From: a virus
DNA: 63,801 bases
IMG/VR virus record: IMGVR_UViG_3300032236_000737
Span: 1 to 63,801 of that record
Strand: one strand, 5' to 3'
Positions 56,436 through 60,667 of the stretch are shown in pieces (the first letter of the stretch is position 1; every line of letters begins with the position of its first letter). The notes under the pieces are model-generated. The model had not been told where the DNA came from and made no database searches. It was given only the letters and a program-made list of their open reading frames with translations. Both the position numbers and the translations under genes were made by a program.

Positions 56436-57335
56436 ATGAAACTTCACGAATTACTTGATAATGACTCCTTACGAACTAATGAAGGACTAGCATCTTGGTT
56501 AGTTAAAACAGGTGCTAAGATGGGAGGCAAAGCTGCCGTTAAAGCTGGACTTAAAGGGTCTGCTCCTGCTGCCGAGAAAGTGGCTACAAAAGTTGCAAAG
56601 TCTGGTGTAGTAGACAAAGGATTTAAAGCCATATTTAAAGTAGGCGAAATCGTCAAGTGGCTGGTAAGCATTGGATTTGGTTATAGTGTAGCCAAACCAG
56701 TTTATGACTACTATACAAATGTTAGCAAAGCTGAAGACAACTACAAAGCAGGTGCTACTAGCCAAGAAGAATATCAATATATCCGTCAGCAACTGATGGG
56801 TCTTATGTTGACCAAGATTGCTGTCTTATTAGAAGGTGCGGCATTTTTAGGATCTATTGGTCTAGTTGCTAAAATCTTGGGCATTTTTAAATTTATTCCG
56901 GGAGTTGGATTAATTTTAAGAACAGTCTTGGCTATGGATACTGCGGCCGCTGCCGCATTCTTAGTAGCACTTAACAGTGAGTTTGGTCGCAAGTGGATTA
57001 CTAAAATTGCTTTCTTCCATCTAAGTGAAATTTTCCCTAGTTTGAAAGGCAGTCAATGGGATTTAGATATTGCAGATGTACTAGGTGCTGGCGGTGTTTG
57101 GATTACAGACGAATTTAAAAAGTTAATTGGTAAAGAAGATCCGGCAGATGCTCCTATTCAAGGAAATACTCCTGCTCAACAAGCTGGAAGAACTCCAGAC
57201 GACAAAGCTACTGATACTGCTCAAAAACAACATGCTGACCAGCAGACTAAAGACACAGATGAATGGGAACAAATTGCCCCAGGACGTGAGCAAAATAAAC
57301 GTACGGGTGTTATCCGTATGAATGACAAATATTAA
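56436..57335 (+). CDS. Hydrophobic late protein of unknown function
   Basis: A 299-residue protein. The N-terminus 'MKLHELLDND' resembles the start of other late phage proteins. Hydrophobic segments lie at about 72-92 and 112-176, the latter long enough for two or three membrane helices ('IAVLLEGAAFLGSIGLVAKILGIF'). The last 70 residues are Gln/Thr/Asp-rich and probably disordered. No Shine-Dalgarno site is visible. It could be a membrane-active virion protein or an injected protein; I do not recognise a family. Its stop overlaps the convergent stop in TTAA. Confidence 0.5.
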   Translation: MKLHELLDNDSLRTNEGLASWLVKTGAKMGGKAAVKAGLKGSAPAAEKVATKVAKSGVVDKGFKAIFKVGEIVKWLVSIGFGYSVAKPVYDYYTNVSKAEDNYKAGATSQEEYQYIRQQLMGLMLTKIAVLLEGAAFLGSIGLVAKILGIFKFIPGVGLILRTVLAMDTAAAAAFLVALNSEFGRKWITKIAFFHLSEIFPSLKGSQWDLDIADVLGAGGVWITDEFKKLIGKEDPADAPIQGNTPAQQAGRTPDDKATDTAQKQHADQQTKDTDEWEQIAPGREQNKRTGVIRMNDKY

Positions 57336-57568
57336 ATCAACGGCATTCCGCTGTTTTTAGTATTTTCAAAGTTGTCATTAACTATTTCATAAAAGATTGC
57401 ACGATCTTCGTGTGAGTAACGATCTAATAAATCGTTAACTGTAACGCCGCCTCGCATGTACCAACTGATTCTGTACAACTCTAATTTAAAATCTTTTACG
57501 TATTTTTCAAGCCTAATCAAGTCTTCTTGAATTTCCTGGGCGGATAGTCCGATTAGGCTTGTCCGAAA
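57332..57568 (-). CDS. -1 frameshift extension of gp26
   Basis: This frame has no usable start of its own. Before it comes a TAA and no ATG or GTG; the only candidate, TTG at 57520, lies partly in an RNA stem. It is reached by a -1 slip at 57565-57571 and adds about 78 residues to gp26 ('RTSLIGLSAQEIQEDLIRLEKY', then 'ELYRISWYMRGGVTVNDLL'), making a product near 349 residues. The helical, charged content fits a tail-assembly chaperone extension that would contact the tape measure protein, encoded divergently next door. It may correspond to T4 gp51 by position. Confidence 0.65.
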   Translation of the reverse strand, partial: FRTSLIGLSAQEIQEDLIRLEKYVKDFKLELYRISWYMRGGVTVNDLLDRYSHEDRAIFYEIVNDNFENTKNSGMPLI

Positions 57569-57571
57569 AAA
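57508..57571 (-). promoter_or_regulatory. Programmed -1 frameshift signal
   Basis: On the minus strand the heptamer T TTT TTC (57571-57565) stands in the gp26 frame as the canonical X XXY YYZ slippery site. Three bases later CAAGCCTAATC (57561-57551) pairs perfectly with GATTAGGCTTG (57518-57508), an 11-bp stem with a 32-base loop. The gp26 stop codon lies within the 5' arm. The spacer is shorter than the usual 5-9 bases unless the foot of the stem opens. Confidence 0.75.
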
Positions 57572-58380
57572 CTTGTTTGATCCATAGTTATAGTAAGTTC
57601 GTCTTTACCTTGACACTCATCACATTCTATAGGGAATGTAGGAATCATCCAAGCATCGCGATTCTTTTCAAACTGTTCTTTAATGCGAGCAAATATTTCT
57701 CTATCGCAATTTTCCAACCATTCATTGATATAAGCACGTTCAGTTACATTTACTTTATCAGTTTGTACACTATCAATGCTTAGACTGTACAGCTCATTTT
57801 GCATACGACCCAAATCGTCAAACAATGAATTTAGAATCTTTTGTTGCTCTTCTTCGTTTTCAATACGATTAGCTTGTGATAATTTTTGTTGTAATTGAAA
57901 GTTCTTTAACCCAAACTCGTTGCTTTGTGAATAAGTCAACGGTTTCATATTGATTACTAAATCGTCTAATACTAGTTTGTTATTAAAGTGAGCAGTAGTA
58001 AAGTGTTCAATCAAACGATTTAAATCGACATTATATTCTCCAAGATTTCCGCAATGGGGGCAAGTTTTTTCCACGCCCATGTCTGCACCAAATGTAGCAA
58101 TACGTATAGCTGTGAACATTAAGTCAGTGTCCAGAACACTTAACTCTGCGGCATTCTTAATACTAGGACAGCAACTTTCGATAACACGAATATTGCTTTC
58201 ACCGGTTAGTAATGCATCTGGAGTCTTCATGATAATTTCATCCATGCCAGTCATACCGTATACTGGAATGCTATTAACGTCTCCTTGTATAGTTCCTGGC
58301 TTGCTGTAGACGCCTTGACTAGGTAGTTTTACAAAGATTTTAGGTTGTCTAAAGTGTTGTGCTAATGGATTATTTGCCAT
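57553..58380 (-). CDS. 26: Baseplate hub protein gp26
   Basis: A 275-residue member of the T4 baseplate (gp26) family. Seen: the start 'NPLAQHFRQPKIFVKLPSQGVY', 'VYGMTGMDEIIMKTPDALLTGES', a zinc-ribbon-like pair 'CPHCGN' (about 107) and 'CDECQG' (about 257), and 'LDTDLMFTAIRIATFG'. T4 gp26 is 208 residues and takes part in hub assembly. The gene ends in a slippery heptamer that leads to an extended form. A perfect late-promoter motif lies 30 bases upstream. Confidence 0.82.
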   Translation of the reverse strand: MANNPLAQHFRQPKIFVKLPSQGVYSKPGTIQGDVNSIPVYGMTGMDEIIMKTPDALLTGESNIRVIESCCPSIKNAAELSVLDTDLMFTAIRIATFGADMGVEKTCPHCGNLGEYNVDLNRLIEHFTTAHFNNKLVLDDLVINMKPLTYSQSNEFGLKNFQLQQKLSQANRIENEEEQQKILNSLFDDLGRMQNELYSLSIDSVQTDKVNVTERAYINEWLENCDREIFARIKEQFEKNRDAWMIPTFPIECDECQGKDELTITMDQTSFFGQA

Positions 58381-58441: not shown

Positions 58442-60667
58442 ATGGCAAAACTTGATGCAGAAGATTATGAAGGTATAGCGAAAGCGTTATCTACACAAGG
58501 CCGCTTTGGCGGAAATTCCGCACCTCCTCCTCCTTCTAGTGGCAGTAGTGGCGGGTCTGGAATAATTGATAATGCCATATCTGGAATAGGCAAACTTGGC
58601 TCAGGCAGTTATAACACTGCCGCGGCTTTACAAGATACTGCTGGTATTATTTCAAAAGTTTCACCTACACTAGGATCAGCACTAGGCGGAATAGCTAAAG
58701 GTGCTACTGATACCAATGAGATGATTCGCAGTACCGGCAAGGCTGGTGTTAATTTTGGTAATGATATAGGTCAAGCTAGAGAAAGTATCACTGGCGCTCG
58801 TATGGACTTGGGTCAGTTTAACAACATGGTCCGTAAAAATAGTACAGACTTTGCTGGTTTAGGACAAGGTGTTGATCAAGGTACAAAGAATCAGCTAAAA
58901 TTAAATCAAGCTGTTATTGAACAAGCAGATATTCAAGGTAGTTTAGCAGAAAAATTAATGCAAAGCGGTGTAACTGCTGATGATTTTAGTACAGCTACTA
59001 GATTAGTTACACTAAACAGTCGTGCAGGCATGTTACAAGATAAAGAACGTGCGGCCCGTGCAACTCAGAGTGCTATTGAACTTGCCGATGAGATGGACAA
59101 GTTAGCTAAGATTACTGGTAAGAGCAAAGAGCAACAAGCTAACGACTTAGAAAAACAAATGCGTAAAGCAGACGTTCAGGCAACATTGTTGCAAATGGAC
59201 GATCAGCAACAACAAAACTATAAGAAAGCACAATTAACATTTGGTACATTGGGTGAAGGTGTACAAGACTTAGCAAGTGAAATTGTAACAGGCGGTGTTC
59301 GTACTAAAGAAGGTGCGGCGGCCATGAGTGCATTAGGGCCAGCTGGTAAAGAATTTGAACAAGCATTGAAACAACAAATGGCTGCTCGTACTCCAGCAGA
59401 GAAAGCGGCCGCTGAAGCACAGATGAACCTTGCTAAACAGCACATTAGTGAATATCAAGCTAGTAAGGAATATAGAGATAAACTTGCATATGACCGTAGT
59501 GCAAGTGGTGATGCCGCTAGAAAAATGTTCACCGAGAACAAAGAAATGCAAGGCAAGTTGCAAACAGCTGGGTTAATTGAAAAAGAAACAGGTAAACCAG
59601 CAACTAGTGAACAAGTTATTGCTACACAACAACGAGCCGCAGACAGACAAACTAAAGGTCAAGATGTAGACACTGGTAAAGATTTAAAAGGCGCGGGCAC
59701 AGGCCGTGCAATTAACCAAGCAGACTTTGAATTAGGATCGGTTAGTGCAGGTTTAAACACTGGATTTAGAAAAATTAACGATGCGATTGCTCCTACACCT
59801 GAAGCACTTGAAAAAATGACACAAAAAGCCAGAGAGTTTGGCTTAGGAACTCAAGCGGGTGTTGCTGGAAAAATAGATCAAGGTGCAACTGCCGCACAGA
59901 ACTTTGTAGGAGTCAGACCACAAAATACACAAAGTGGTACTTTTAATCCTGAAACAGGAGAAGTAAAGAAAGTATCCCGTGAGTTTGGTAGTCCAGGTGT
60001 TGATCAATTCCTAAAAGGCGGATCCTTTGGCGGAATGTTTGAACAGTTTGGCAAAGGAACTCCAGCAGTACTACACGGCGAAGAGATGGTTGCTACTAAA
60101 AATCAAATGACTCAAATGCTAGGCAATATGTCTAAAGGTATGCCTGGTATTGGAGGAAGCTTCAATGCCAGTGATATGATGAAAGGAATGGAAGGCGCCC
60201 AAAGTTTAACTAAAGCCGATCAAGCTGGTATGCGAGAAGCATTGAGCAAAATGGGCGACAAAGAACGTTTGTCTATGATGCAAACTGGAGATTTAAATTC
60301 TCCAATGATGCAAGAACTGAAAAAGATGATGGGTGAAGGTGCATTCCAAGGCCCGATGCCAAGTCTTAGTGGCAAAAATGCTATGCCTGGAATTCCAAAA
60401 ATTCCAGAAATACCAAAAATTACTCCACCTTCTATTACACCTCCACCTCCACCAGCACCTACTGCCGCACCAAAACAAGAAGATGCAGGTAATATTCAAA
60501 AGAAAGCCGCACCAGCAACAGCAGATGTAACCATGAAAGACCTGAAAGACCAGCTTGTTCACTTAAATAGAAGTATAGAGAAGCTAGTTAGCCATAGTGC
60601 CGATACAGCAGATGCCGCGCATAAGCAGGTTAAAGCAACTAAGAGCATGAGTGGAAACAGGCTTTAA
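58442..60667 (+). CDS. Tail tape measure-like protein
   Basis: A 741-residue, largely helical protein rich in Ala, Gln, Lys and Gly. Long heptad-like stretches cover about 150-370. The C-terminal 'GTPAVLHGEEMVATKNQM' is a hallmark found near the end of many tape measure proteins. A Pro-rich linker (about 650-680) and a final helix follow. It would set tail length and sit inside the tube, like T4 gp29 (590 residues). It lies next to gp26 and its frameshifted extension, as expected of a chaperone client. Assignment by pattern and position. Confidence 0.65.
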   Translation: MAKLDAEDYEGIAKALSTQGRFGGNSAPPPPSSGSSGGSGIIDNAISGIGKLGSGSYNTAAALQDTAGIISKVSPTLGSALGGIAKGATDTNEMIRSTGKAGVNFGNDIGQARESITGARMDLGQFNNMVRKNSTDFAGLGQGVDQGTKNQLKLNQAVIEQADIQGSLAEKLMQSGVTADDFSTATRLVTLNSRAGMLQDKERAARATQSAIELADEMDKLAKITGKSKEQQANDLEKQMRKADVQATLLQMDDQQQQNYKKAQLTFGTLGEGVQDLASEIVTGGVRTKEGAAAMSALGPAGKEFEQALKQQMAARTPAEKAAAEAQMNLAKQHISEYQASKEYRDKLAYDRSASGDAARKMFTENKEMQGKLQTAGLIEKETGKPATSEQVIATQQRAADRQTKGQDVDTGKDLKGAGTGRAINQADFELGSVSAGLNTGFRKINDAIAPTPEALEKMTQKAREFGLGTQAGVAGKIDQGATAAQNFVGVRPQNTQSGTFNPETGEVKKVSREFGSPGVDQFLKGGSFGGMFEQFGKGTPAVLHGEEMVATKNQMTQMLGNMSKGMPGIGGSFNASDMMKGMEGAQSLTKADQAGMREALSKMGDKERLSMMQTGDLNSPMMQELKKMMGEGAFQGPMPSLSGKNAMPGIPKIPEIPKITPPSITPPPPPAPTAAPKQEDAGNIQKKAAPATADVTMKDLKDQLVHLNRSIEKLVSHSADTADAAHKQVKATKSMSGNRL

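Follow-up and report, generated by a model that had tools for sequence, protein, structure and literature searches.

The window analyzed here is the complete IMG/VR record IMGVR_UViG_3300032236_000737, a stretch of 63,801 bases of viral DNA that may be a fragment. The minus strand carries a gp26-like gene (57553..58380) encoding a protein of 275 aa, a putative short form of the TAC-N type. This protein matches the Pfam family PF12322 (T4_baseplate) with an E value of 3e-16 and 60.2 bits, where the curated cut-off is 24.5, and also matches phrog_150 (baseplate hub) with an E value of 9e-20. Its AlphaFold2 model has a pLDDT of 88. A Foldseek search of the model against the PDB, in which a fold shared with proteins such as HK97 gp13 was sought, gave no match at E ≤ 0.001, and PDB sequence searches with gp26 and with its extension gave no useful match. 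A second PF12322 gene, i.e., a gp51-like paralogue, is absent from the window, a record that may itself be a fragment.

The gp26 ORF ends, on the minus strand, with ATG GAT CAA ACA AGT TTT TTC GGA CAA GCC TAA. As the initial annotation had claimed, the heptamer T TTT TTC is present here (57571-57565; frame-0 codons AGT TTT TTC), and its register within the ORF (58380-57553) is that required for -1 slippage. The frame-0 stop codon TAA (57553..57555) is located 9 nt past the heptamer. The bare TTTTTTC string is not rare in the window, with 17 copies vs 27 expected. Among window ORFs of at least 100 aa, this is the sole case of an A/T-type slippery heptamer within the last 15 codons. Position and register, rather than the string as such, set the site apart.

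Downstream of the heptamer is a stem-loop (57508..57561, minus strand) with a loop of 32 nt. Its arms, CAAGCCTAATC (57561-57551) and GATTAGGCTTG (57518-57508), form a perfect 11-bp stem whose 5' arm includes the gp26 TAA, and the coordinates first assigned to it are exact. The spacer from the heptamer is 3 nt to the full stem and 6 nt to a conserved 10-bp core (57558-57549 with 57520-57511). The stem segment folds at -18.1 kcal/mol, with a z score of -3.1 vs dinucleotide shuffles. The arrangement described as a frameshift signal is thereby confirmed as real.

A ribosome that slipped by -1 on the heptamer would read RTSLIGLSAQEIQEDLIRLEKYVKDFKLELYRISWYMRGG...MPLI. This -1 extension (57332..57565, minus strand) has 77 residues beyond ...SFF (RTSLIGL...MPLI) and a stop ending at 57332, in agreement with the open frame of about 78 residues initially claimed. 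AlphaFold2 models the extension as a confident helical domain with a pLDDT of 91; the input alignments for both models were built from the window and the retrieved related loci. Compared with viral structure models, the extension model has weak matches, mostly to unnamed phage proteins.

Conservation of the heptamer and its candidate stimulators

The gp26 junction was compared across 176 sequences. These are composed of 14 cultured jumbo phages, 79 IMG/VR freshwater-type loci, 80 cyanophage or marine loci, Syn30, C48C1, and the window. Among cultured phages, the nearest relatives are jumbo phages, e.g., XaC1, RaK2, 121Q, PA5oct, and Atu_ph07. Loci were gathered by gp26 protein similarity and the heptamer was not used, so the conservation test is not circular. 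Separately, the uncultured 595-kb phage LR756511 (L022:3699-3926) has an in-frame TTTTTTC near the end of a PF12322 gene, and its -1 frame is open beyond the stop.

In all 176 junctions, gp26 has an in-frame TTTTTTC (173) or TTTTTTT (3) at its end, and the -1 frame beyond it is open; the sequences are related by descent and do not represent 176 independent events. Across the other 42,896 codon positions of these genes, TTTTTT is in frame at 11, and just 2 of 129 further Phe-Phe pairs are encoded by the slippery sequence. The second Phe codon of the site is TTC in 173/176 despite TTT making up 72% of the Phe codons in these genes, and the nucleotide sequence itself therefore appears to be selected. 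Conservation among relatives, which the initial annotation had proposed as a check, is the decisive evidence that this heptamer would serve as a frameshift site.

The downstream stem is conserved over a narrower range. In 36 close relatives, 98.3% of the cells of the 10-bp core are paired, and two-sided changes are observed in 14 cells at 3 pairs. The covariation score of the core is 0.321 vs 0.237 ± 0.012 for shuffles, and slid controls are far lower; since the 36 sequences are related, the shuffle count is not a probability. The mean folding z score is -3.1 in these 36 relatives, and -1.2 both in the jumbo phages and in the loci L068-L103. The stem is absent from L068-L103, most of the jumbo phages, and the cyanophages. 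Thus, the expectation that the stem is conserved holds in the closest clade, where compensatory changes are found, and not in more distant relatives. The stem as a universal element was rejected.

The cyanophages instead have a candidate upstream stimulator. The cyanophage and marine loci L104-L183 are enriched for a Shine-Dalgarno-like GAGG approximately 14 nt upstream of TTTTTTC. One of AGGA, GGAG, or GAGG is located within 20 nt upstream of the heptamer in 66/82 cyanophage loci vs 0/94 in the window's lineage. The Glu codon that forms the motif is GAG in 60/81 cyanophage loci vs a background of 21% in the same genes. Upstream Shine-Dalgarno-like elements are known stimulators of -1 slippage, as in dnaX. 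From sequence comparison, the stimulators appear to differ by lineage: the window's clade has the downstream stem, and the cyanophages have the Shine-Dalgarno-like motif on the upstream side.

Both the covarying RNA stem and the Shine-Dalgarno-like motif point to the ribosome. Slippage of the polymerase on the T run would also join the two frames, given that a six-T run is present in every relative and that one added T yields the same frame. However, six T is short for polymerase slippage. Seven T are avoided (3/176), and the invariant C at the seventh place would have no role during transcription. Transcriptional slippage is thus considered very improbable, and ribosomal slippage is the preferred reading of the site.

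The extension and its reading frame

The extension evolves as a protein, under purifying selection in the -1 frame. For the complete extensions of the freshwater clade, each of 77 codons, pN/pS is 0.38 in the -1 frame vs 0.92 and 1.48 in the other two frames. In codons 21-36, which are 5' of the first conserved Met, the value is 0.36.

The initial annotation held that the -1 frame has no ATG or GTG. In the window, neither codon is present in the 38 codons that begin with FF; over the whole frame the claim does not stand, as there are ATGs at 57346 and at 57457, the latter encoding the Met in WYMRGG. TTGs are located at 57520 and 57478. Among relatives, an early start is mostly absent. ATG and GTG are missing from codons 1-36 in 47/59 distinct freshwater sequences, 32/59 also lack TTG, and the -1 frame of PA5oct is without any start codon. 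Two jumbo phages, 121Q and Phosso, do have an ATG that overlaps the stop of gp26.

These starts bear on whether the second frame forms a small gene of its own, started independently or coupled at the gp26 stop (e.g., TTG 57520 or ATG 57457). Several jumbo-phage annotations list it as a separate hypothetical gene (121Q 595, GAP32_242, and XaC1_326), and the overlapping ATG in 121Q and Phosso would fit coupling. However, the starts are not conserved, and protein selection acts on codons located 5' of the first conserved Met. Coupling also leaves the invariant TTTTTTC unexplained. A separate gene is therefore an improbable account of the second frame. As for TTG 57520, the codon is CTG or CTA in close relatives, and an independent start at this position was rejected.

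Relation to T4 gp26 and gp51

T4 gp26 and T4 gp51 both match PF12322. The two proteins are related to each other with a BLAST E value of 2e-6 and a profile E value of 6e-16. The alignment of cyanophage gp26 plus its extension with T4 gp51 covers 242 columns, spans the frameshift junction, and has an E value of 1.9e-14. The cyanophage extension alone matches the C-terminus of gp51 with a probability of 94%. The end of T4 gp26 coincides with the end of cyanophage frame 0, and T4 gp26 has no extension. In addition, one PHROG family, phrog_634 ('baseplate hub assembly catalyst'), has matches in gp51 (residues 147-246) and in the Syn30 extension.

In the window's lineage, gp26 with its extension aligns with the cyanophage proteins over 282 columns at an E value of 5e-18. 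Direct comparison of the window extension with T4 gp51 gave nothing significant, so the tie of this lineage to gp51 runs via the cyanophage proteins. The initial annotation had proposed gp26 and its extension as the T4-type counterpart of the frameshifted tail assembly chaperones. Through the cyanophages this proposal holds, with gp51 matched end to end and T4 gp26 as its paralogue. On alignment evidence, T4 gp26 and gp51 are best read as paralogues of the short and long forms. Like those encoded at the window locus, the T4 proteins belong to PF12322 and comprise a short form and a long one bearing an extra C-terminal domain. T4 has two paralogous genes for them and uses no frameshift, whereas the window has a single gene with a -1 site and, downstream, a covarying stem.

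The cyanophages have gp26 and a short protein named 'gp51'. Sullivan 2010 (PMC3037559) described cyanophage gp51 as approximately 20% of the length of other gp51 proteins and similar to their C-terminus; the word 'frameshift' is absent from the text of that paper. Judging from the alignments, this short 'gp51' is the -1 extension. As in the window, an in-frame TTTTTTC is located just 5' of the gp26 stop and is followed by a -1 extension, in 82/82 loci. Unlike the window, the cyanophages have no conserved stem, are enriched for the upstream Shine-Dalgarno-like motif, and have a shorter extension of 59-68 aa.

Gene order and the proposed chaperone pair

The tail assembly chaperones G/GT of lambda and E/E+E' of P2 are produced by -1 slippage beside the tape measure gene. 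The window locus is similar in that -1 slippage close to where the first frame ends would yield a short protein and a minor longer one. The likeness seen is of layout rather than of sequence. The window gene is also divergent from its long neighbor, whereas in lambda and P2 the tape measure gene follows the chaperone gene directly and in the same orientation. In the TAC locus of the Pakpunavirus Adele (PMC12846349), TAC-N likewise ends in a poly-T -1 site, and the second frame is routinely annotated as a gene of its own. Adele differs in belonging to another phage family and in its slippery motif, GTTTTT (PMC12846349).

The neighbor (58442..60667, plus strand) encodes 741 aa and is a putative tape measure protein. 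It has no family match in Pfam or PHROG and no tblastn match. In most relatives, its counterparts start approximately 60 nt from gp26. Their lengths vary from 589 to 1566 aa, as expected of tape measures. Some counterparts contain an LLHKGEMVLTP-like motif, which we take to be one found at tape measure C-termini. Identification of the neighbor as the tape measure gene is plausible. In the window, this gene is itself beside the portal gene, and the gp26 gene is divergent from it rather than placed between tail tube and tape measure genes. In SP-15, LIS04, and Mel-JY01, the homologous gene has the tail tube gene on one side and, on the other, a very long tail gene that in LIS04 is annotated as the tape measure.

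Our main reading is that the locus encodes a lambda G/GT-type two-product tail assembly chaperone made by -1 frameshifting, to which we assign a probability of about 0.88 on comparative grounds. Slippage at the site is supported by the universal heptamer, the usual lack of an early start, and the covariation of the stem in the closest clade. Points against it are the absence of the stem in distant relatives and the 3-nt spacer to the full stem, which is short. From the conserved features we infer that frameshifting occurs, that it is a minority event, and that the products act as a chaperone in binding the tape measure and tube. Most ribosomes would terminate at 57553 and release gp26 of 275 aa. 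In a minority, tRNA-Phe on TTT and TTC would slip by -1 on T TTT TTC, aided in the window's lineage by the stem-loop 3-6 nt downstream. These ribosomes would then read TTT TTT CGG and continue into the 77-residue helical domain, generating a gp26-extension protein of 349 aa. As with lambda G/GT, the predicted partner of the short form is the tape measure protein, and the predicted task of the minor long form is to bring in tail tube subunits. T4 produces the corresponding pair from the paralogous genes 26 (short) and 51 (long).

The frameshift may instead be real and its products involved in baseplate hub assembly only, with no tape measure chaperone of the lambda type. T4 gp26 and gp51 are listed among the hub assembly chaperones (PMC3004832), and the tape measure identity of the neighbor is putative. 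However, the position observed in SP-15, LIS04, and Mel-JY01 is the classic one for a chaperone gene, and Vladimirov 2022, as cited by others, names the T4-like pair tail assembly chaperones. The T4 tape measure gp29 is a component of the hub itself (PMC3004832), and the hub and tape measure roles therefore overlap. A role limited to the hub is judged unlikely, and a two-product tail assembly chaperone is favored.

G-T frameshifting was described as widely conserved 'except T4' (Atkins 2016; PMC5009743). As cited in PMC10885494 and PMC12846349, Vladimirov, Gautam and Davidson 2022 (Virology 566:9-15) treat gp26/gp51 as T4-like tail assembly chaperones. PRFect cites that work for the statement that some T4-like phages have one gene for the short product and another for the fused long product, and the Adele paper (PMC12846349) cites it for poly-T -1 signals in T4-like TAC-N genes. 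The novelty here is modest because the core idea of G/GT-type chaperones in T4-like phages is, by these citations, already published. The fused layout is thus informative, as initially claimed, and by the same citations not new in principle. The present analysis adds the jumbo and freshwater lineage, stimulators specific to each lineage, and, for distant relatives, a +1/-2 arrangement.

In SP-15, LIS04, GXN1, Mel-JY01, LR756508, and the Streptomyces phage LuckySocke, the extension follows the short gene in the +1 (equivalently, -2) frame. The gp26-like genes of this group end at L018:3753, L019:3717, L020:3714, L023:3729, L195:2723, and L196:2696, and the slip sites were inspected by eye. LuckySocke has CTC TGA at its stop, which resembles the RF2 site. 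The extensions of the Gram-positive phages have a modest match to the extension profile of the window's lineage (probability 80%). The three Thornevirus-type phages of this group share CCCGATT just 5' of the stop.

Tentatively, and at somewhat less than even odds, one chaperone family may have kept a two-product output while switching how the products are made. Production would be by -1 slippage on an invariant TTTTTTC with interchangeable stimulators, the stem in the window's clade and the Shine-Dalgarno-like motif in cyanophages. It would be by +1 or -2 slippage in phages of the SP-15, Mel-JY01, and LuckySocke types, and by the duplicated genes 26 and 51 in T4. Inside a single family, a swap of stimulators and a change of direction would, if true, be new.

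Of the jumbo-phage annotations examined, those of 121Q (L003:3837-4046) and GAP32 (L010:3867-4043) split the extension off as a hypothetical gene, and those of RaK2 and PA5oct (L004, L006) omit it. A probable core tail-assembly protein is consequently wrongly annotated in these phages and the others examined, its long form being missed or split. The family also provides a natural comparison, since the same two proteins would come from -1 slippage, from apparent +1/-2 slippage, or from a separate gene for each. The cost and control of recoding would thus be directly testable, with T4 genetics included.
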